DNA of 64,000 nt. Source: Plantactinospora sp. BC1. Its GTDB lineage: Bacteria; Actinomycetota; Actinomycetes; Mycobacteriales; Micromonosporaceae. The notes beneath the pieces are model-generated. The model did not search any database. It was not told where the DNA came from and saw nothing but the letters and a program-made list of their open reading frames with translations. Shown here one piece after another: positions 52,303 to 61,639 of the stretch. The stretch lies in NCBI RefSeq assembly GCF_003030345.1, contig NZ_CP028158.1, forward strand, positions 2,666,001 through 2,730,000, written 5' to 3'. Numbering within the stretch: the first letter of the stretch is position 1; each line of letters starts with the position of its first letter. Made by a program: the position numbers and the translations under genes.

Positions 52303-53109
52303 TCAGCCGTCCCGCTTCGGCGGCAGCACCACCCGGGCGACGCCGGGCAGCCGGCAGAGTTCGGTGTCCAGTTCGGAGGCGGCGGCCCGGTTGGCGGCGG
52401 CCTGGTCGGCCAGCTCGACCTGGTACAGATCGTTGCCCCGAGGTGGCAGCGTCGGGGTGGCCGCCTCGGCGCGCTCCGGAGCGGCCGTAGCCGTACCGTC
52501 GGTGTCGTCCCGGGGCTTCAACCGCACCGCGACCACGTCGGGGAGGGCGCGCAGCTTGGCCTCGACCGCCTGCCGCTCGGACTCCGAGATCGTCCTCGAC
52601 AGGTAGACCCAGATCTCGCGCCAGTCGCCCTGCTTCGGCGCGGGCGACAGGCTTCCCCAGGCGCAGTTGGCCACGGCCGGGGCCGACGGCGGCGGCGTGA
52701 GCGCTGACTCGCCCTTGAAATAGACCACGTCGTCGACGCCGGGCAGCGCACGCAGTTCGGCGACGAGCGGACCGGCGACGGCGCGGTCGAAGGCGTCCCG
52801 GTCGCGCAGGGTCAGCTTGAAGGACTCGGGGAGCTTGTCGGCGCGTACCGCGTCGAGCAGTTCCGGGTCCTCCGCCAACCGCTCCTTGATGTCCGCGTAC
52901 GCCTGCTCCCGGCTCTGGAAGGTGACCTCGGCCGCGTCCGGTACGTCGCGCAGTCTCTCCTGCACCGCCTGCTTCTGCTCCGGGGTCACGTCGGCGGTGA
53001 GGAACACCGTGATCGGCGGATTGATCCGTTCGACGGGGTCCGGCCGACAGCCGACCAGGCCACTGGTCAGCAGGATCGTCAGCACCAAGGTCGTCACCGC
53101 TCTGCGCAC
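52303..53109 (-). CDS. Lipoprotein with two FtsX-type extracellular domains
   Basis: A 268-aa lipoprotein: signal sequence and lipobox LVGC (Cys about 21). Two FtsX extracellular-domain-like units follow (ITVFLTADVTPEQKQAVQERL... and IWVYLSRTISESERQAVEAKL...), each ending in a LP-x-V motif. FtsX normally carries this domain between membrane helices and uses it to activate peptidoglycan hydrolases; here it is free of a permease. GTG 53109 lies eight bases after TAGGCT (53123-53118). Divergent from another lipoprotein. Confidence 0.8.
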   Translation of the reverse strand: MRRAVTTLVLTILLTSGLVGCRPDPVERINPPITVFLTADVTPEQKQAVQERLRDVPDAAEVTFQSREQAYADIKERLAEDPELLDAVRADKLPESFKLTLRDRDAFDRAVAGPLVAELRALPGVDDVVYFKGESALTPPPSAPAVANCAWGSLSPAPKQGDWREIWVYLSRTISESERQAVEAKLRALPDVVAVRLKPRDDTDGTATAAPERAEAATPTLPPRGNDLYQVELADQAAANRAAASELDTELCRLPGVARVVLPPKRDG

Positions 53110-53221
53110 GGCCCCGGAGCCTAGCGGAGCGCGGCGACCCGACGCGGCCGGTTTCCGGCGGCGGTCCAACCAGGACCGTCGGGGCCGGCGCTGGTCGGAG
53201 ACGTCCGGTAGGGTGCCCCGG

Positions 53222-54082
53222 GTGCGACGGATGGCGGCGTTGGTGCTGATCGGGATTGTCACGGTGGTGGGCGGCTGCGGGCCGGGTGAGGTGCCCGAGC
53301 CGCAGGTGGAACCCGCACACAAGGTGTCGTACTCGATCAGTGCCTCCGGCACGGCCAACGAGAACCTGAAGATCAGCTACGCCGGTCCGGACGGCGCTGG
53401 CGTCGAGGCCACCTCGCCGGGGACGGTGCCCTTCTGGAGTACCGAGGTCACCACCAAGCCCGGCGTCGCGCTCCTCTTCGTGCAGGGCAACGCGAACAGC
53501 TCCGACCTGTCGTACCAGCTGACCTGCACGATCAAGGTCGACGGCGTCGAGGTGGTCAACGGCAGCGGCCCGTACTCGTGCGCGACCCAGTTCGAGCTGT
53601 CGAGGCTGCCGTCGATGCTGGCGGAGAAGTCACCGTCGGCCGGGTCCGGCCCCACCACCCCGGCGGCGGCCCGGCCGTCGGCTCCGGCCACCCCGTCCGG
53701 CCCGCCCCAGGTGGCGGGGTGCGGATTCGTCGAGGGTGCGGAGGTGAGCCGGATCGTCAGCGAGCTGGCCGGCGTCTCCAAGCCGGTGCAGAAGGTGAGC
53801 GGGAACCGGAACCGCTGCACCTACGTCCTCGACTACGACCTCACCCAGGTGACCATGACCTGGCGGCCCGGCGACAAGGCGGAGCAGGTCTACGGCGCAC
53901 CGAAGGTCTCCGGCCTCGGCGTCACCGCGTACTGGGCTGACCTGGGCAGCTTCGGAATTCTCGAGGCACAACTGCCGAAGGGCGCGTTCAACGTGCAGGT
54001 CGACGTCACGGGGCTCAACATCGACCTGCGGAAGTTCGCCATCGGCGTGTTCAAGGCCGCCAAGCCGCGACTGCCCAAGTGA
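53222..54082 (+). CDS. Lipoprotein with MmpS-like and DUF3558-like domains
   Basis: A 286-aa lipoprotein with lipobox VVGGC (Cys about 19). Residues about 32-135 resemble the MmpS immunoglobulin-like fold (YSISASGTANENLKISYAG, YQLTCTIKVDGVEVV), then a Ser/Thr/Pro/Ala linker and a C-terminal domain (CGFVEGAEVSRIVSEL, RNRCTYVL) with paired cysteines, somewhat like DUF3558. No MmpL transporter is nearby. GTG 53222 follows TAGGGT (53209-53214) by seven bases. Confidence 0.75.
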   Translation: MRRMAALVLIGIVTVVGGCGPGEVPEPQVEPAHKVSYSISASGTANENLKISYAGPDGAGVEATSPGTVPFWSTEVTTKPGVALLFVQGNANSSDLSYQLTCTIKVDGVEVVNGSGPYSCATQFELSRLPSMLAEKSPSAGSGPTTPAAARPSAPATPSGPPQVAGCGFVEGAEVSRIVSELAGVSKPVQKVSGNRNRCTYVLDYDLTQVTMTWRPGDKAEQVYGAPKVSGLGVTAYWADLGSFGILEAQLPKGAFNVQVDVTGLNIDLRKFAIGVFKAAKPRLPK

Positions 54083-54186
54083 CGCCCGCGCCGGCCAGCC
54101 CGGCGGTCCAGCGGCCGTGAGCTGTCGGACGGCGCACGTCACCACCCGCTGACCCGAGCGTGGGCGGCGCGTCGCGACGCTGGTAA

Positions 54187-54215
54187 TTGCTGGAAAAGAG
54201 TGGAACTCGTACTCT
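54187..54215 (+). promoter_or_regulatory. Promoter of the nuclease/helicase operon
   Basis: -35 TTGCTG (54187-54192) and -10 TACTCT (54210-54215) are exactly 17 bp apart. Transcription should begin at about GTG 54222, making the first gene leaderless. No other promoter is seen inside the operon. Confidence 0.65.
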
Positions 54216-54221
54216 GCGAGC

Positions 54222-55067
54222 GTGGCCGAGTCGGTGGACGCGATCGAGCACCGGATCGACGCCCTGCGGGCCGAGATCCGGCGCGCGGTGGCGACCCGGG
54301 ACACCAGCCGGACCCGGGCACTCCGGGCCGAGCTGCGGGCCGCCGAACGCGACTGGGAGCAGGCGGTCGCCGACCTCGCCGATCTGGCCGACCTCAGCGC
54401 CCCCACCGGGGAGGCGCCGGTGGGGGCGGAACCCGGACCGGCCGGGTCACTGCTGCCGGTACGTGAGCAGGTACACCACGCGCTGACCCTGCTCTCCGTA
54501 CCGGCCGCGCCGAGACTGATCGCCGAGGTGCACGCGGCGTTCTTCGGCCCGTCGGCACCGAGCCTGGCCGCGAACCGCCTCACCCACCTGCGACGGGACG
54601 AGAAGCGCTCGTTCGAGACGGCGCCGTACGCCCGGCCGTACCATCTCTGCGCGGCGCTGACCGCCGCCCACCTGGCACCGGCACGCGGCCTGATCGCGGT
54701 CTCCACCTGGCCGCTCGAACGGCGGATCGTCGGCCCGCTCAGCCCCCGGGTCGACTTCCTGACCGCGGCGGTCCGGGTCGCCCGGCGCGCCGGCACCATG
54801 CCGGACGGCAGCGCCCCGGTGAGCAAGCTGCTGTGGCGGTTCGCCACCAACATCCCCGGGGCGACCGGAGCACCGGGAACACTTGATCGCCATGACACAG
54901 TGGATCCGCAGACGGTGATCCGGGCGGCCGAGGCCGAACAGGCGGTGCACGCCGAAACCGACCGGGCACAGCGGAAGGCGGCGGCCGACCGGGCCCGCCG
55001 ACAGCTCGACGACGTGCAACAACTCTTCGGCAGTACGCTGCGGACGCTCCAGAGGAAGACGGCATGA
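54222..55067 (+). CDS. Coiled-coil protein, first gene of nuclease/helicase operon
   Basis: A 281-aa protein I do not recognise. Residues 1-55 form a charged coiled coil (AIEHRIDALRAEIRRAVATRD, ALRAELRAAERDWEQAVADL). The middle (REQVHHALTLLSVPAAPRLIAEV, ANRLTHLRRDEKRSF) reads like a winged helix, and the C-terminus is another coiled coil (AQRKAAADRARRQLDDVQQLF). It may bind DNA and scaffold the complex. GTG 54222 is six bases after TACTCT. ATGA overlap with the nuclease gene. Confidence 0.72.
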   Translation: MAESVDAIEHRIDALRAEIRRAVATRDTSRTRALRAELRAAERDWEQAVADLADLADLSAPTGEAPVGAEPGPAGSLLPVREQVHHALTLLSVPAAPRLIAEVHAAFFGPSAPSLAANRLTHLRRDEKRSFETAPYARPYHLCAALTAAHLAPARGLIAVSTWPLERRIVGPLSPRVDFLTAAVRVARRAGTMPDGSAPVSKLLWRFATNIPGATGAPGTLDRHDTVDPQTVIRAAEAEQAVHAETDRAQRKAAADRARRQLDDVQQLFGSTLRTLQRKTA

Positions 55068-56221
55068 CGAGCATCAGCATGGGCACCGGCAGGAGTACCG
55101 CCGATCGGCTGGCCGCGATCCGGGGCGGGGTGCAGCCGAAGCGGCACAACGCCCGGACCATCGCCGCGCTGACCCGCAACCCCGGCTGCGCCCGCCGGGC
55201 CGTACTCGACACGGCCGGGGTGGACAAGCAGCGGCTGGCGGCGTACATCGACTTTCCGGCCCGGTTCGGGCAGTCCGGCTTCGCCATCGCCCGGGGCAAC
55301 GCGTTCGAGGCGCAGGTGAAGGCGAGCGGCGCCGCCGAGCTGGTGAGACTGCTCCGGGAACGGCTCGGGCTGCCGATCCCCGAGGTGGCGTACGACGACC
55401 TGGAGACGGTGACCGGGCGGGAGAAGGAGAGCCCGGAGGTCCGGTACGCCCGCTCCCGCGCCCTGCTGCTGCGGGCCGCCGCCGGGGAGGAGGACGCCGG
55501 CACGCTCTTCGACCACCCGCTGCTCGCCCTGGAGGTGGCCGGTCAGCGGGTCTATCTCGAACCGGACCTGATCGCCTTCCAGCACGAGGGGCGGTTCCAC
55601 GTCGTCGAGATCAAGTCGTTCGCGGTGGTCGACGGGCAGGCCGACCCGGCCAAGGTGTCGGCGGCGGCGATCCAGGCCGCCGTCTACGTGCTGGCGATGC
55701 GGCAGATGCTGGCCGAGGCCGGGCACGACCCGGAGATCGTGGCGCACGACGTGATACTCGTCTGCCCGCGTGACTTCTCCAACTCCCCGACGGCGGTGCT
55801 GGTCGACGTACGCCGGCAGTTGGCCGTACTGCGACGGCAGCTCGGCCGGATGACGAGGGTCGACACGATGTTGGCCGCCCTGCCGCCGAACCTCAGCTTC
55901 GACCTGGCGCCGGACGCCGACGGGGTGCCGACCCGGGCGCCGGAGGCGCTGGTCGAGGCGTTGCGGACGGTGGAGGCCCGGTACGCCCCGGACTGCCTGT
56001 CGGTCTGCGAGCTGGCCTACTTCTGCCGGGCGGAGGCGCGCGGCTGCACCGCCGCGCTCGGCACCTCGGCCCGGGAGGAGCTGGGCGGGATCGAGCGGGT
56101 CGAGACCGCGCTCGGGCTGGCGAAGGGCGAGCTGAGCCCGGCCGAGGAGCAGGAGGAGGCGGCGGCGCTGCTCCGCAACGCCGCCCGGCTCCGCGCCGAG
56201 GTGCTCGGGACGGCGGGATGA
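55064..56221 (+). CDS. Cas4/RecB-like PD-(D/E)xK nuclease with predicted Fe-S cluster
   Basis: A 385-aa nuclease-like protein. The RecB-type core is seen as GNAFEAQVK (Glu82), EPDLIAF (Asp168), VEIKSF (Glu182, Lys184) and Q-x3-Y (Gln204, Tyr208). One cysteine precedes the core (Cys42, NPGCARRAV) and three or four follow it (Cys311, 315, 321, 328, in CLSVCELAYFC and RGC). A single N-terminal plus C-terminal cysteine group around the nuclease is the Cas4/AddB/Dna2 plan for a 4Fe-4S cluster. Overlaps both neighbours by ATGA. Confidence 0.82.
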   Translation: MTSISMGTGRSTADRLAAIRGGVQPKRHNARTIAALTRNPGCARRAVLDTAGVDKQRLAAYIDFPARFGQSGFAIARGNAFEAQVKASGAAELVRLLRERLGLPIPEVAYDDLETVTGREKESPEVRYARSRALLLRAAAGEEDAGTLFDHPLLALEVAGQRVYLEPDLIAFQHEGRFHVVEIKSFAVVDGQADPAKVSAAAIQAAVYVLAMRQMLAEAGHDPEIVAHDVILVCPRDFSNSPTAVLVDVRRQLAVLRRQLGRMTRVDTMLAALPPNLSFDLAPDADGVPTRAPEALVEALRTVEARYAPDCLSVCELAYFCRAEARGCTAALGTSAREELGGIERVETALGLAKGELSPAEEQEEAAALLRNAARLRAEVLGTAG

Positions 56222-56319
56222 TCCTGCTGTCCGGGCCCGCCTGGCCGGTGACGGCGGCGGTGGCTGCCGGGACGGTGGCGGTAGCCGGGGCGGTGGCGGT
56301 TACCGGGGCGGTGGCGTGA
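56218..56319 (+). CDS. 33-aa hydrophobic ORF chained between nuclease and next gene
   Basis: ATG 56218 overlaps the nuclease stop (ATGA), and its TGA (56317-56319) overlaps the GTG of the next gene (GTGA). The peptide starts MILLSGPAWP and continues as an Ala/Val/Gly/Thr-rich hydrophobic stretch. Three 18-bp units (56269, 56287, 56305) underlie it. It either is a real small membrane peptide or acts as a translated linker that couples the downstream gene, which has no good ribosome binding site. Confidence 0.5.
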   Translation: MILLSGPAWPVTAAVAAGTVAVAGAVAVTGAVA

Positions 56320-57839
56320 GCACGCTGACCGCGCTGGCCCGGGCCGAGGCGGTGGCGGCCGGGCACGCCCAGCGGATCACGACGGTACGCCACCTGCACG
56401 TCGCGGACCGGCCGCTGGTCTTCATCCCGCTGAGCATGGCCGGCGAGGCGAACGCCCCGCTGGCCGCACTGGTCGGCACCGACCCGGCCGAGCCGAGACT
56501 GCTGGTGGTGCCGCAGCCGCGCAACCGGGACCAGCGGTTCGGCTTCGCCGCCGAGCTGGCCGAGGTGCTGCTGCCCTATCTGGACAGCTTCCGGGGCGTC
56601 ACCGAGGCGGTCGCGGCCAACCGGGGCAGGGAGGTCCGCTACCGGTACGTCGACGCGCCGCAGATGCTGGTGCCCAACTCGGCGGGGATCGGCTTCGTCC
56701 GGATGTTCGGGCGGTCGACGCGGTTCCGGCGTACCGACGGGGACTATCCGGTGCACCCGACTGTGCCGCTGCTCGGGCAGTGGCTGACGTTCCTGGCGGA
56801 CCGGGCCGAGCACCCCGGCTCGGGGATGCTGCTGGCGATGACCGAGGCGCTCGGACTGCACTGGGCGACCGGGCAGTCCGCGCTGGAAGACGCCCATCTG
56901 GCGGCGCTGCTCGCCTGGATCGACCCGGCGGATGGGTTGAGCGGGGCGGATGCGGCGGTGATCGCCGAGGACCCGCTGCGCTGGCCGCCGGCCGGGCCGG
57001 CCACCGATCCGACCTTCGACAACGAGGTACTGGCGCCGGCGATGGCCGGATACGAGGAGGCGGTGGCGAGCGGCGACGAGGTGCGGCGGGGGCGCGCTCG
57101 GGGCGTACTCGAAGAAGCCCTGCGATCGCAGCTCACACCGACCTGGGAGCTGATGTGGCGGGGCGTCTCGCTGCTCCGGGAACTGCCGGTCGGGGCGCGG
57201 GTTCCCGGGCGTTGGGCCGAGGACCGGGACGTCTTCAGCACCTTCACCCTCTATGTCGACGGGGGCGGTTATCCGCAGCCGCGCCGGGACGGTGCGGTCA
57301 ACGCGGCGCAACGGCTGCACCGGCTCGAACGGGCGTTGCAGTCGTACGCCGTCCAGCGCGCCTACGACGACCCGCTGGTGATGGCCGACCACCGGCTGAC
57401 CGGGGAGGCGTTCGTGGGTGAGGTGACGTTGGCGGACGCGAACCGGATCGACGACAGCGGGAGGCGGCGGGTGCTGCGGCCCCGGATCCAGGTGACCACG
57501 GGTGACCCGGTGCAGGTGACGGTGGGTGCGGTGCTGCACTCGCCGAGCCGGCCGGGGCAGAAGGCCCGGGTGGTTTTCGTGACGCCGGACCGGTCGACCG
57601 GTCGGACGGACGTGGTGCTGGAGCTGTCGGGTGGGTTGGGGCGGTCGCTGAGCCCGGCGCCGGGGAGCGTGCCCGAGGTGGGGGACCGGCTCTGCTACAC
57701 GACGCTGTCGGACTCGTTCATGCCGCCGGGGGAGTTCCCGAGCCGGGAGGAGACGCCGTGGACGCACGGCGGGCCGCCGAAGGCGTGGGAGGAGCCGGTC
57801 GAGCCGACCGTGGACGATGCTCGGGAGGAGTGGTCGTGA
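56316..57839 (+). CDS. Unrecognised 507-aa protein of the nuclease/helicase operon
   Basis: No family is recognised. It is soluble, with a mixed alpha/beta N-terminal half (PLVFIPLSMAGEANAPLAAL, VVPQPRNRDQRFGFAAEL), a helical middle and a C-terminal beta-rich part (VTTGDPVQVTVGAVLHS, ARVVFVTPDRSTGRTDVVLEL, GDRLCYTTLSD). The last part could be a barrel like the 1B insert of Upf1-type helicases, supplied separately here; this is speculation. GTG 56316 lacks a clear ribosome binding site. It overlaps the helicase gene by GTGA. Confidence 0.75.
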   Translation: MSTLTALARAEAVAAGHAQRITTVRHLHVADRPLVFIPLSMAGEANAPLAALVGTDPAEPRLLVVPQPRNRDQRFGFAAELAEVLLPYLDSFRGVTEAVAANRGREVRYRYVDAPQMLVPNSAGIGFVRMFGRSTRFRRTDGDYPVHPTVPLLGQWLTFLADRAEHPGSGMLLAMTEALGLHWATGQSALEDAHLAALLAWIDPADGLSGADAAVIAEDPLRWPPAGPATDPTFDNEVLAPAMAGYEEAVASGDEVRRGRARGVLEEALRSQLTPTWELMWRGVSLLRELPVGARVPGRWAEDRDVFSTFTLYVDGGGYPQPRRDGAVNAAQRLHRLERALQSYAVQRAYDDPLVMADHRLTGEAFVGEVTLADANRIDDSGRRRVLRPRIQVTTGDPVQVTVGAVLHSPSRPGQKARVVFVTPDRSTGRTDVVLELSGGLGRSLSPAPGSVPEVGDRLCYTTLSDSFMPPGEFPSREETPWTHGGPPKAWEEPVEPTVDDAREEWS

Positions 57840-59203
57840 GTTCTTCCGGGCTGCTGATGCCCCGTGGTGGTGGGTCTGGACGGTTGGTGTTGCCGCCGGC
57901 CGAGGCGGCGCGGCGGGTGGTCGGGGAGGTGCTGACCGACCTGCACAGCGGGGACCACCGTGGGGTGGTGGTCGACTCGCCGCCGGGGGCCGGAAAATCG
58001 ACCCTGGTGGTGCGGGCGGCGGGGGAGCTGGCCGAGGCGGGCGAGCCGCTGATCGTGATCGCTCAGACGAACGAGCAGGTCGACGACCTGATCGACCGGT
58101 TGGCGCAGGCGAAGCCGGAGCTGCCGATCGGGCGGTTGTCGGCGAACGACTACACGGCGACGGACCGGATCAAGAACTATTCGACGGTCCGGGTCGCGGC
58201 GAAGGTCGCGGACCTGGGACCGTCGTCCGTGATCATCGGTACGGCCGCCAAGTGGGCGCTGGTCCCGGAGGGACGCTGGCCGTGGGCGATCGTGGACGAG
58301 GCGTACCAGATGCGCTCCGACGCGCTGCTGCGGGTGGCGGGGCGGTTCGACCGGGCGTTGTTCGTGGGTGACCCGGGACAGTTGGATCCGTTCTCGACGG
58401 TGGAGACGGAACGCTGGACCGGGCTGACCTGGGACCCGATGCAGTCGGCGGTGGCGGCGTTGCTGCGGCACAACCCGGACCTGCCGGTACACCGGTTGCC
58501 GGTGTCGTGGCGACTGCCGGCGTCGGCGGCTCCGGTGGTGGCGGAGGCGTTCTATCCGTTCACGGGGTTCTCGGCGGGGACCACGGCTGCGCAGCGGTCG
58601 CTGTCGTTCGCCGCCGCTGGGTTTGGTGGTGGGGCGGTGGACGAGGCGTTGGAGATGGCGGCGGCTACCGGGTGGGCGTTGTACGAGCTGCCGGCTCGGC
58701 ACACGTTGCGGACGGATGGCGAGGCGGCGGCGGCTTGTGCGCGGTTGGCGTTGCGGGTGTTGGAGCGGGGGGCGGTGGCGGTGTCGGAGCGTTTTCCCGA
58801 GGGCGCTCCGGTGACCGCTGATCGGATCGCGGTGGGGGCGGCGCACCGGGACCAGGTGGCGGCGATCCGGGCGCGGCTCGGGGCGGCCGGGGCCGGCATC
58901 ACGGTGGACACGGCAAATCGCTTGCAGGGACGCGAGTACGACGTGGTGATCGTGCTGCACCCGCTGTCGGGGCGGCGGGACGCGACCGCGTTCCACCTGG
59001 AGGCGGGGCGGTTGTGTGTGCTGGTGTCACGGCACCGGCACGCGTGTGTGGTGGTGGCCCGGGCGGGGATCGGGGAGTTGCTGGACGCCCATCCGTCGAC
59101 CGAGCCGGTGCACCTGAACGTACCGGTCAAGTTCCCGGACGGCTGGGAAGCGAATCAGGCGATTGCCGCGCACCTTGCCAGCAGCAGAAGCGCGGCGTAC
59201 TAA
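57836..59203 (+). CDS. Upf1/Dna2-like SF1 helicase
   Basis: A 455-aa compact SF1B-type helicase. Motifs in order: Walker A PPGAGKST (49-56), motif II DEAYQ (154-158, the DEAxQ form of Upf1/Dna2/SETX), motif III GDPGQL (178-183), motif IV region SWRLPASAAPVV, motif V VDTANRLQGREYDVVIV (about 357-373) and motif VI LVSRHRHACVV. No nuclease is fused, in contrast to Dna2 and its bacterial fused relatives. GTG 57836 has an upstream GGGAGGAG. The 3' end overlaps the convergent GIY-YIG gene by 4 bp. Confidence 0.88.
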   Translation: MSSSGLLMPRGGGSGRLVLPPAEAARRVVGEVLTDLHSGDHRGVVVDSPPGAGKSTLVVRAAGELAEAGEPLIVIAQTNEQVDDLIDRLAQAKPELPIGRLSANDYTATDRIKNYSTVRVAAKVADLGPSSVIIGTAAKWALVPEGRWPWAIVDEAYQMRSDALLRVAGRFDRALFVGDPGQLDPFSTVETERWTGLTWDPMQSAVAALLRHNPDLPVHRLPVSWRLPASAAPVVAEAFYPFTGFSAGTTAAQRSLSFAAAGFGGGAVDEALEMAAATGWALYELPARHTLRTDGEAAAACARLALRVLERGAVAVSERFPEGAPVTADRIAVGAAHRDQVAAIRARLGAAGAGITVDTANRLQGREYDVVIVLHPLSGRRDATAFHLEAGRLCVLVSRHRHACVVVARAGIGELLDAHPSTEPVHLNVPVKFPDGWEANQAIAAHLASSRSAAY

Positions 59204-59976
59204 CCCGAGCCCAGAATGGAGGGCAAGAAGGCTGCCGGTTCCACGCACCGGACGGCCGGATGTCGAATCGCGTCCGCGTCCGCGTCCGCGTCCGCCGAGG
59301 CCGCTGCTTGCCAGATCTCCTGTACCGCCCTGAACAGGTGATCGACCCGGGGAGCAGCCTTGGCGCCCTGCGACTGGCTCGTGTCGAAGGCGACAGGCCG
59401 CCATCCCCCTTGGCGAGTGCGGTGCTCCGAATTCGCAAGCGGGCGGAGCCACTCCTGAAGCCGGTGCTCGAGCGCGAGTCCGGCGACCGTTGGGGAGATG
59501 TCGTCGGGAATGCTGGCAGCCTCAGGAAGTGCCGGCCACATCACCACAAGCACGCGGTGCCAGATCTCTGGTGGGAACGTGTTCGCCAGATGATGGCTTT
59601 CCCCGATGGGCAGGTCGCGCAAGCGGCGTTGGGCATTGGCAGTCTGGCCGACGTACAGCAGACCCGCACGCAACCAGACGCCATAGAGCACAGGACCGTG
59701 GACGGGGCCCTGCCGGTCGGTAGCCCGCACCAGCGCCAACCCGAGTCTCTGCGCAAATTCGGAGCGGGCGCGTCGCCAGGCTCGCGCATCCTCCTCGTCC
59801 GTAATCAACTGCTGTAACGCCTCGTGCCAGTTTCGAACAGCGTCCAGCCGTCGACGATGCGTATCGCTCGGCGGGGTGTTGCCGTCGGCAGCAGGTTCGT
59901 CACCTGCCATGTGACAGGCCACCGTGCGCTGCTGATCGAGCCACCGATAGTCCGCCCGACGCGCCAGCTCCGTCAC
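59200..59976 (-). CDS. GIY-YIG-like nuclease domain protein
   Basis: A 258-aa protein with a helical N-terminal half and a GIY-YIG-like module (YGVWLRAGLLYVGQTANAQRRLRDL, near residue 105-130), followed by EHRLQEWL with a candidate catalytic Glu. The C-terminus has an ADADADADAD run from a (GTCCGC)n hexamer repeat. GTG 59976 lies seven bases after TACGCT (59989-59984), favouring it over the TTG at 60027. Catalytic competence is not certain. Confidence 0.75.
   Translation of the reverse strand: MTELARRADYRWLDQQRTVACHMAGDEPAADGNTPPSDTHRRRLDAVRNWHEALQQLITDEEDARAWRRARSEFAQRLGLALVRATDRQGPVHGPVLYGVWLRAGLLYVGQTANAQRRLRDLPIGESHHLANTFPPEIWHRVLVVMWPALPEAASIPDDISPTVAGLALEHRLQEWLRPLANSEHRTRQGGWRPVAFDTSQSQGAKAAPRVDHLFRAVQEIWQAAASADADADADAIRHPAVRCVEPAAFLPSILGSG
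59268..59300. repeat. Hexamer (CGTCCG)n repeat inside the GIY-YIG gene
   Basis: Four to five CGTCCG units in tandem encode an alternating Ala-Asp stretch on the minus strand. Slippage by whole units would keep the frame. Confidence 0.8.
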
Positions 59977-60042
59977 GTCGGCGAGCGTAGCTTGCTCGGT
60001 CGAGTCCCGAATCAGGGATCGGTCCAAATCTTGAGCCTCCGG

Positions 60043-60582
60043 TCAGAGACGATCCCGATGGCCTCCTATGAGCCGGAGCAGCTCGGCGGCCAACCGGCGC
60101 CACTCGAAGTTGCCGTCCGACGTCGGTGATCGCAGCGCCTCGGACGGCGTGAACATCACGCCGGCACTGCTGAGCAACCGGACATGCCGGTCGTACGCCG
60201 GGTGCGTGGTCAGGGCCGCCTTGGCGTACGGGGAGACGAGGATGGGCAGGCCGAGGCCGAGTACCTCGTTGAGGATGCCCAGGGCGAGTGTGTCGTTGAT
60301 GCCGAGCGCCCACTTGTTGATCGCGTTGAAGGTGGCGGGGGCGACCAGCACGGCGTCTGCCTTCGGCAGTCGGTCGGGCTCGTCGGGCCTGCGGCGTTCG
60401 GAGCGGACGAGGCTACCCGTCTGCTGCGCCAGAGCCTCCCGGTCGATCCAGCTCGCGGCTGTTGGTGTTGCAATCACCCGAACCGCCCAGCCGTCCTCCA
60501 ACAGCAGCTCGATGAGTTCGTCGATCCGGAGGGCTGGTGGAGCGGCGCAGACCACGAGGTACAGGACCGGTCGCCCGCTCAT
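60043..60582 (-). CDS. Flavoprotein of the PPC-decarboxylase-like (HFCD) family
   Basis: A 179-aa homo-oligomeric flavin-containing Cys decarboxylase-like protein. Features are VLYLVVCAAPPALRIDELIELLLEDGW, VIATPTAASWID, the flavin-contact ADAVLVAPATFNAINKWALGI near residue 75 and LPILVSPYAKAALTTHP. Members act in CoA or lantibiotic-type peptide chemistry. ATG 60582 follows CAGGAT by seven bases; longer in-frame starts add only low-complexity sequence. It sits between two nuclease genes, and a link is not evident. Confidence 0.85.
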   Translation of the reverse strand: MSGRPVLYLVVCAAPPALRIDELIELLLEDGWAVRVIATPTAASWIDREALAQQTGSLVRSERRRPDEPDRLPKADAVLVAPATFNAINKWALGINDTLALGILNEVLGLGLPILVSPYAKAALTTHPAYDRHVRLLSSAGVMFTPSEALRSPTSDGNFEWRRLAAELLRLIGGHRDRL

Positions 60583-60772
60583 GTCAGCAATCCTGCTCGC
60601 TCGGCCAGTGGGCGAAGGCTGGGAGTAGCCGACCGACGTGACGCCACTATCCACGAGTCCCGCGCCGGCCCCGGCAGCCGGCGGCGGTGCAACCGTTTCG
60701 TCAACCACCCCGGACCCTGCACCGGTCCACATATCGATGCCTTCCTGAGGAGCCCTCGGATACCGTTCCGGC

Positions 60773-61639
60773 ATGCCGGACCCTTCCCCCGACGAGCTGC
60801 TCGCCGACTTCAGCCCACCCCAGCCCTACACCGTCGACCTCGTCGCCACTGCCCCGACTGTCGGCGGCGTACACGTGGTCGTCGACGACGGCGAGGTCGT
60901 CTATGTCGGCGAGACCGGCCACCTGCGGCGACGCCTTCGGCAGCACCTGCGCGGCAACCGCGAGTCGTCGGTGCTGCACAAGCAGGTCGGCGAGGAGCTG
61001 GACAGGGACAGAACGACGACCGCCGCCACCGCCGACGAGATCGCCGGTTGGCTGGGGGAGCGGACGCTCCGTTGGAGGGTGACCGAGGACCGGCGCGGGC
61101 TCAAGGCGGCGCTCGTGTCGCGGCTGAGCCCTCGCTTCAACCACCAACTCCGGTCCGATCTCTCGCACCAGGCGGGCCAGTCGGGCGGGTCCGCCGCCGC
61201 ACTCGACGTGCCGGAGAGCCCCGACATCGTCGAGCTGGCGGAAGGTCGGCGGCGCAGGCAGGCCGAGGTCACCGTCCGGCAGGGCCAGCCCGACTTCCGC
61301 CGCCGGCTTTTCCAGGCGTACGACGGGCGGTGCGCGATCTCCGGCTGCGACGTCGAGGCCGCACTCCAGGCGGCCCACATCAGCCCGTACGACGGTCCGG
61401 CGACCAACACGGTCAACAACGGGCTGCTGCTCCGGGCCGACCTGCACAACCTCTTCGATCGTGGCCTGCTCTGGATCGACGACGATCTCCGGGTACGCCT
61501 CAGCGGCAGCGCGGTCGACTACTACACGGAATTCGACGGCTGGCGGCTGCGGCTTCCGACGAACTGCCATGACCATCCGGACAGGGCAGCACTGCGACGG
61601 CATCGGGACGAAGCCAAGCGGATGCAGGCGGCTCACTAA
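60773..61639 (+). CDS. GIY-YIG and HNH fusion nuclease
   Basis: A 288-aa protein with two nuclease folds. The N-terminal GIY-YIG module has VHVVVDDGEVVYVGETGHLRRRLRQHL (residues about 33-60). The C-terminal HNH (HNH_2-like) module has FRRRLFQAYDGRCAISGCD, LQAAHISPYDG, NTVNNGLLLRADLHNLFDRGLLWID (about 175-245), with the His-Asn-His series and a C-x4-C zinc-type pair. The HNH half is like those of modification-dependent restriction enzymes. ATG 60773 follows TACCGT (60761-60766) by six bases. It is probably a restriction or defense nuclease. Confidence 0.87.
   Translation: MPDPSPDELLADFSPPQPYTVDLVATAPTVGGVHVVVDDGEVVYVGETGHLRRRLRQHLRGNRESSVLHKQVGEELDRDRTTTAATADEIAGWLGERTLRWRVTEDRRGLKAALVSRLSPRFNHQLRSDLSHQAGQSGGSAAALDVPESPDIVELAEGRRRRQAEVTVRQGQPDFRRRLFQAYDGRCAISGCDVEAALQAAHISPYDGPATNTVNNGLLLRADLHNLFDRGLLWIDDDLRVRLSGSAVDYYTEFDGWRLRLPTNCHDHPDRAALRRHRDEAKRMQAAH

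Follow-up and report, generated by a model that had tools for sequence, protein, structure and literature searches.

A putative Dna2-type nuclease-helicase divided among three proteins of an actinobacterial operon

Eukaryotic Dna2 carries a nuclease, which acts on single-stranded DNA ends and is regulated by a single-stranded DNA-binding protein, and a helicase on one polypeptide. According to its structural description (PMC4716839), an iron-sulphur cluster staples the N- and C-terminal extensions of the nuclease, and between the nuclease and a helicase of ~450 residues two long helices form a stalk that bears a barrel. Here we describe an operon in a stretch of 64,000 nucleotides (nt) of the Plantactinospora sp. 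BC1 chromosome (NZ_CP028158.1; hereafter the window, located at 2.67–2.73 Mb of the 8.33-Mb single-contig genome), in which four genes, termed A to D, are accompanied by a tiny open reading frame (ORF). We consider it probable, with some reserve, that B, C, and D represent a Dna2-type nuclease-helicase split into three proteins, with a predicted complex, activity, and role. The locus comprises the following features:

54190..54215, forward strand: operator-like direct repeats CTGGAA (54190–54195) and TGGAA (54201–54205) with a -10-like TACTCT (54210–54215), seen from the distribution of the repeats across loci
54222..55067, forward strand: gene A, 281 amino acids (aa), putative DNA-binding regulator with a coiled coil and one segment whose elements follow the winged-helix order, from its model, its distribution, and solitary A genes that keep the operator
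55064..56221, forward strand: gene B, 385 aa, predicted Cas4/Dna2-type nuclease with four cysteines, from residue conservation and a profile match to Cas4
56218..56319, forward strand: relay ORF of 33 codons with a four-base overlap with the B stop and with the C start; the same layout occurs in relatives
56316..57839, forward strand: gene C, 507 aa, with an N-terminal alpha/beta domain, long helices, and C-terminal stalk-like helices plus a barrel, from its model and Foldseek
57836..59203, forward strand: gene D, 455 aa, superfamily 1B (SF1B) helicase core of the Dna2/Upf1 type, from Pfam AAA_11 and AAA_12 and a match to DNA2

The likeness to Dna2 (PMC4716839) extends to a nuclease with one N-terminal and three C-terminal cysteines, a putative stalk/barrel-like part, and an Upf1-type core, all in the same order. 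The operon differs in encoding three separate proteins instead of a single polypeptide (B and C are one ORF in 4 of 130 loci, C and D in 0 of 90), in an extra N-terminal domain of about 225 residues in C, and in having its own putative regulator. Cas4/RecB-type nucleases (PF01930) share with B the D..ExK..Q motifs and the cysteines, which align with those of 17 actinobacterial Cas4 proteins, whereas B has no Pfam match, is about twice as long, and is accompanied by C; B was accordingly rejected as a member of PF01930, a search for which was also empty in the window's genome (G000). In the CnuH/CnuE proteins of CoCoNuT systems, as presented in PMC11090510, a UPF1-type helicase with a stalk and an oligonucleotide/oligosaccharide-binding (OB) barrel is coupled to a separate nuclease. 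The operon, in contrast, has no match to an McrB-type GTPase among A–D, places its putative stalk/barrel-like part in another protein, and pairs it with a Cas4-like nuclease. Nor are A–D the JetABCD proteins of Wadjet, the Jet genes being separate neighbors in 2 of 133 loci. Mokosh systems consist of a helicase with a kinase, or with a phospholipase-D nuclease. The helicase part of D matches MkoA and MkoC (E about 3e-10), whereas A, B, and C have no Mokosh match and no kinase or phospholipase-D match occurs among A–D, so that the operon was rejected as a member of Mokosh, which an earlier sequence-only note on this DNA had named as another setting of Upf1-like helicases. Finally, HerA-NurA-Mre11-Rad50 end-resection operons exist in archaea, and some of the operons studied here similarly run A-B-C-D-SbcD-SbcC, although a Dna2-type pair replaces HerA/NurA and the SbcCD link is confined to a minority of loci.

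In searches of open-access papers in PubMed Central, no description of the operon was recognized, nor was there mention of the three-subunit split, of a putative regulator paired with the operator, or of relay ORFs. The parts of the operon are of known kinds, and these three features appear to be new.

Nuclease, connector, and helicase

The genes are joined by four-base overlaps, read directly from the sequence: ATGA at 55064 (A/B) and at 56218 (B/tiny ORF), and GTGA at 56316 (tiny ORF/C) and at 57836 (C/D). These overlaps and coordinates agree with the layout given in the earlier note, and the layout is above chance, as many genomes repeat the same order. Searches of Pfam, NCBIfam, and PADLOC gave no significant match for A, B, or C, and the earlier note had likewise recognized nothing in the 281- and 507-aa proteins; B has one sub-threshold NCBIfam match (E 0.027). 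Two annotated records give the genes no names other than "hypothetical protein" and "AAA family/domain protein."

In the Cas4/AddB/Dna2 pattern, a D..ExK..QxxxY core is flanked by one cysteine on its N-terminal side and three on its C-terminal side. In B, C42, C311, C315, and C321 are invariant in 40 aligned proteins; in a larger alignment of 131 rows (which contain repeats, some genomes having been taken in twice, such that the 143 loci collected represent 133 distinct ones), these cysteines are kept in 130, 131, 131, and 131 rows, respectively, and the nuclease residues D168, E182, K184, Q204, and Y208 in 128, 123, 120, 122, and 120. By these residues, B is predicted to be a PD-(D/E)XK nuclease of the Cas4/Dna2 pattern with putative 4Fe-4S cysteines. 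The earlier note had proposed such an enzyme and had singled out Asp168, Glu182, Lys184, and the cysteines as the positions on which the proposal depends, and all of them are conserved. Comparison of the B profile with 17 actinobacterial Cas4 proteins (from 30 loci) in hhalign superposes the D, the ExK, and the Q (P 3e-5, probability 73%). The B sequence profile retrieves no confident PDD/EXK structure, the best meaningful lead being a XisH-type protein (E 0.75). In 13 of the 131 rows, among them all four B-C fusions (loci L077, L084, L085, and L086), part of the D/E/K site is lost and the C-terminal cysteines are kept, and B is probably structural in that branch.

D is a Pfam AAA_11/AAA_12 helicase in which the SF1 motifs are invariant across 38 aligned proteins. 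Its best solved relatives are DNA2 (5eax, E 8.9e-14), then SMUBP-2 and UPF1, which bears out its previous assignment as an Upf1/Dna2-type SF1 helicase. A joined C+D profile matches bacterial Upf1-like helicases (P 4e-27) over D only. With 455 aa, D has the size of the Dna2 helicase part. In the Dna2/Upf1 helicase group, a stalk and a barrel precede the motor; since D starts ~47 residues before its Walker A motif, there is no room in D for these elements.

Structure models were made for C and A. The AlphaFold model of C (predicted local distance difference test [pLDDT] 92, predicted template modeling score [pTM] 0.87) consists of a helix (residues 3–15), strands (34–64), a helix (71–90), strands (96–111), more helices to residue 217, long helices (232–315), helices (327–361), and strands from 365 to 462. 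In Foldseek, the informative matches of C by probability are weak ones to senataxin (8ftm_B, probability 0.97, E 0.071, 142 columns) and to HerA-DUF4297 entries (probability 0.41–0.92, E 0.06–0.42, about 110 columns); ranked by E-value, a collagenase comes first, with a probability of 0.08. The lengths of these matches fit residues 327–462 of C for senataxin and 1–112 for HerA-DUF4297, and we infer this placement from the lengths. Because of the order of its secondary structure elements and the DUF4297-HerA matches, C may begin with a dead nuclease domain, which we offer as a guess. A profile comparison of B with C shows no relation, and a fold search of C against viral structures returned nothing usable. 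As the model of C ends in stalk-like helices and a barrel, and D has the size of a helicase part, the gene order B-C-D would repeat the Dna2 order of nuclease, stalk/barrel, and helicase.

Linkage of the genes and coupling of B with C

Profile searches of 150 genomes of the family detect B, C, and D in 91 each, and A in 39. When the lists are compared by eye, B and C occur in the same 91 genomes and D in 90 of those, the D list lacking G025 (80% complete) and including G094 (87% complete) instead; one of the 39 A-bearing genomes (G020) is without B, C, and D. Among 396 genomes of the phylum, C is found in 15 and B in 16, with C adjoining B in 16 of 16 and D adjoining in 15. In G003, C adjoins B, with D ~36 kb downstream, and in G400, found with B only, the genes adjoining B match the C and D profiles. 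All 15 loci extracted from 13 of the phylum genomes hold B, C, and D together, and three of them hold A too. A scan of named genomes confirmed at least 566 stretches; the 80 among the matches listed are all from actinomycetes.

The earlier note had named co-occurrence of the four genes in the same order as a check, and independent scattering as a refutation. For B, C, and D the co-occurrence holds, as they keep a fixed order in Actinomycetota and do not scatter independently among genomes; it does not hold for A, present in 39 of 150 genomes, or strictly for D, which is often displaced or inverted. In Micromonospora-type genomes, D often stands apart from C on the same strand, 8–102 kb downstream where both are on one contig (examples are G036 with 8 kb, G143 with 36 kb, G068 with 65 kb, and G140 with 102 kb), and in Actinoplanes-type genomes it is nearby yet inverted in ten loci. 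Searching 30 genomes for D found it in 24, the six without it being those picked for lacking C. In the locus collection itself, 43 of the 143 loci yielded no D sequence, among them L064 and L071, where D is nonetheless present. That D is kept despite insertions and displacement argues for a functional tie to B-C, and against a strict need for co-transcription.

B and C form one ORF of 710–756 aa where they are fused, whereas no A-B fusion was found in 78 loci and no C-D fusion in 90. Together with the shared set of 91 genomes, the fusion gives C the appearance of an obligate partner of B, as had been suggested of the 507-aa protein. A highly divergent A-B-C-D set in the same order occurs at L271:5645-10937, where profile scores are 73.9 bits for A, 57.5 for B, and 38.7 for C, and D is about 30% identical to the window's D. 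Since this set also holds A, the gene is not only a late addition to the operon. The genome with the divergent set (G006) also carries ordinary B, C, and D.

The overlap between B and C is exactly four bases in 70 of the 115 loci with a B-C distance within 300. Where a gap of 11–300 nt separates the two genes, 30 of 34 loci have a short ORF running from the B stop to the C start with the frame preserved, compared with 5 of 26 loci for A-B and 5 of 13 for C-D. By frame alone (a gap of 1 mod 3), the counts are 30 of 34 for B-C, 16 of 26 for A-B, and 7 of 13 for C-D; many of these loci are related and do not represent independent events. The relay ORFs span 7–80 codons and are conserved in neither length nor sequence, and close relatives with different B-C gap lengths keep the frame. 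The window's tiny ORF (56218–56319) is one of them; a conserved peptide was ruled out, as the ORF has 18–35 codons and differing sequence in the window and five close relatives. In locus L036 (L036:5268-8336), B and C are separated by a 3-kb insert, which has at its end a second operator, a promoter box, and a leaderless fragment of A (56 codons) with a four-base overlap between its stop and the C start; this looks like a re-created regulated and coupled start of C. From the presence of relay ORFs in varied gaps, and from the L036 arrangement, we read the relay ORFs and overlaps as signs of selection for coupled B and C synthesis.

Gene A, its operator, and its promoter

The model of A (pLDDT 89) consists of a coiled coil and a three-helix/two-strand segment in winged-helix order; Foldseek against the PDB supported no fold for it and returned nothing usable. 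Upstream of A, TACTCT (54210–54215) lies below the CTGGAA/TGGAA repeats (54190–54205) and six bases before the GTG start codon, and is visible by comparison only. The "one clear promoter" of the earlier note was therefore recovered by comparing loci and is not clear by consensus, a scan of 53950–59400 for the sigma-70 consensus having found none. The transcript of A is probably leaderless, judging by this spacing.

The operator pattern, TGGRR-N5-TGGRR (usually CTGGAA twice at a 10-bp distance), occurs upstream of A in 54 of 64 A-bearing loci. Of 60 A-lacking loci, 1 has it upstream of B, and among 2600 shuffles it appears in 9. A TANNNT box ends 6–8 nt before the start codon in all 54 operator loci, in 0 of 133 sequences upstream of C, and in 5.7% of shuffles; the same box precedes B in 27 of 60 A-lacking loci, and leaderless starts are thus not peculiar to A. 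Ten A-bearing loci lack the operator: in seven, A is <45% identical to the window's A, in L156 the repeat is on the other strand, and two (L050 and L144) are unexplained. No operator repeat accompanies the distant A of L271. A longer form of the operator pattern matches twice in the whole genome, here and at G000:C1:5010317-5010338, with 0 matches in the control. At two solitary A genes, which have no B, C, or D within 12 kb, the operator is again present, as the sole site in those stretches. Because the site travels with A, this protein is the best candidate to bind the CTGGAA repeats and is probably the regulator of the operon; binding and the direction of regulation are predictions, and A may be a repressor or an activator. 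One solitary A with an operator lies at L269:5888-6757, where the adjoining 793-aa gene begins, in its first residues, like a caspase-type peptidase.

Role of the operon and competing explanations

If B, C, and D form a split Dna2, B would be a tunnel-type nuclease closed by an iron-sulphur cluster, C would provide the stalk and the beta barrel and so connect nuclease and motor, in addition to its extra N-terminal domain, and D would be the SF1B motor that moves along or clears DNA. The complex would thread single-stranded DNA ends or flaps through B and so trim or degrade DNA ends. Reinitiation at the four-base overlaps or relay ORFs would keep B and C synthesis coupled, and A would control the operon by binding the CTGGAA direct repeats over the leaderless promoter. 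Most copies look like vertically kept genome-maintenance genes, and those linked to SbcCD (the Mre11-Rad50 homologs) or Wadjet may act against foreign DNA.

Several observations weigh against this scheme. The joined C+D profile meets SF1B helicases from D onward and finds nothing over C, for which no Foldseek match falls below E 0.001 (that to senataxin included), the aligned ranges not being given by the tool. The B-Cas4 match is modest and falls from 73% to 6% with a narrower B alignment (A7), and the D/E/K site is degraded in 13 of 131 B rows, so that cutting is not always the function. The displacement of D by 8–102 kb in many genomes, and its inversion in others, indicates that co-transcription is not essential; 53 of the 91 C-bearing genomes lack A by profile search, and the relay frame is also favored in the gaps between A and B (16 of 26). 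The weak Foldseek E-values, together with the lack of a sequence match between C and SF1B helicases, would also be expected if C were an unrelated scaffold that recruits a separate nuclease and helicase, B and D. Given the helix-barrel order at the right end of C, the absence of a stalk or barrel in D itself, and the B-C fusion, we regard this as unlikely. A system directed at RNA by an Upf1-type motor and a nuclease is suggested by the RNA activity of Upf1 and senataxin relatives, senataxin being the best match of C by probability; it seems very improbable, because the best match of D is DNA2, B is Cas4/Dna2-like, and the SbcCD linkage points to DNA. It is also unlikely that A is a structural subunit and that a host regulator binds the CTGGAA repeats. 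A does keep its operon and position even in the divergent L271 set, and has no fold match, but the repeats follow A and not B-C-D, as seen in their near absence from A-lacking loci (1 of 60) and their presence at both solitary A genes examined.

A dedicated defense system, in which the complex destroys invading phage or plasmid DNA and is kept inactive by A until an infection occurs, is a possibility that we consider doubtful. Extra operon copies exist in some genomes, and copies on Streptomyces plasmids lie beside Wadjet; SbcCD is upstream of one of these, and pieces of SbcCD accompany another. SbcD/SbcC adjoins 11 of 143 loci, and in nine of them (two being one contig counted twice) it lies downstream of D. 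Type IV restriction, RhuM, GmrSD, or PglW genes also occur beside or inside some operons, and exemplars of these and of Jet/Sbc match in 18 of 65 A-bearing loci versus 2 of 68 A-lacking loci, with the exemplars chosen from A-bearing loci. All of these would favor defense. Against it, C is present in 59 of the 61 genomes of a large-genome actinobacterial genus (g50; 45 of 61 in genus g4), and genera largely stay together in the C tree, a quick one that has long branches and raised warnings (34 label changes, where the least possible is 26 and the shuffled mean 62). No relative of C was found in phages or viral contigs, and a PHROGs search with six proteins gave matches for D and the HNH neighbor only. 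PADLOC matches in the first downstream gene number 6 of 18 in A-bearing loci (PglW and JetA being clear) and 3 of 19 in A-lacking loci, no clear difference; mad3 (three times) and PD-Lambda-2_C (once) were taken as generic. For this test 40 rows were sampled, of which L064, L071, and L164 were left out, the gene there being D itself; L148 was counted as A-lacking, although its contig starts just before C and the lack of A is unsure. Among 133 neighbors drawn at random, within size limits, from 718 genes of 83 loci (two D rows being left out), the commonest Pfam families are ordinary. The GIY-YIG and HNH genes of the window, which the earlier note took as support for a defense island, are present near the operon in few relatives, and with no clear excess in the less biased first-neighbor test, a defense island shown by neighbors was rejected.

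In the window, the two neighboring genes encode a weak GIY-YIG protein (59200–60027, Pfam E 0.054) and a GIY-YIG/HNH_2 protein (60773–61639) that resembles phosphorothioate-dependent HNH restriction enzymes and is below the family cut-off. An FtsX extracellular-domain protein upstream (52303–53358) and a flavoprotein downstream (60043–60774) recur in a few close relatives, and the site of the operon may therefore be fixed while the DNA between varies. In L037, L040, L096, and L098, RhuM or GmrSD genes lie between C and D; the operon can thus take up defense genes.

The near-universal presence of C in one genus suggests genome maintenance. Returning to the split Dna2 reading, we infer a function in DNA-end processing, with core copies more likely serving maintenance and a recruitment of extra copies to defense being possible. 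A further step, which we put forward tentatively, is that the operon constitutes a bacterial end-resection module of three co-translated Dna2-type subunits, joined in some operons by SbcCD. A single operon, equipped with its own switch, would then hold the MRN-Dna2 partnership, either as an ancestor of the eukaryotic pathway or by convergence with it. If B, C, and D are indeed a split Dna2, a bacterium would allow nuclease, connector, and motor to be deleted singly, and the division of labor between the nuclease and helicase of Dna2 could be tested directly. The relay ORFs point to a need for joint production of B and C, and the operator would offer a handle on what switches the system on.

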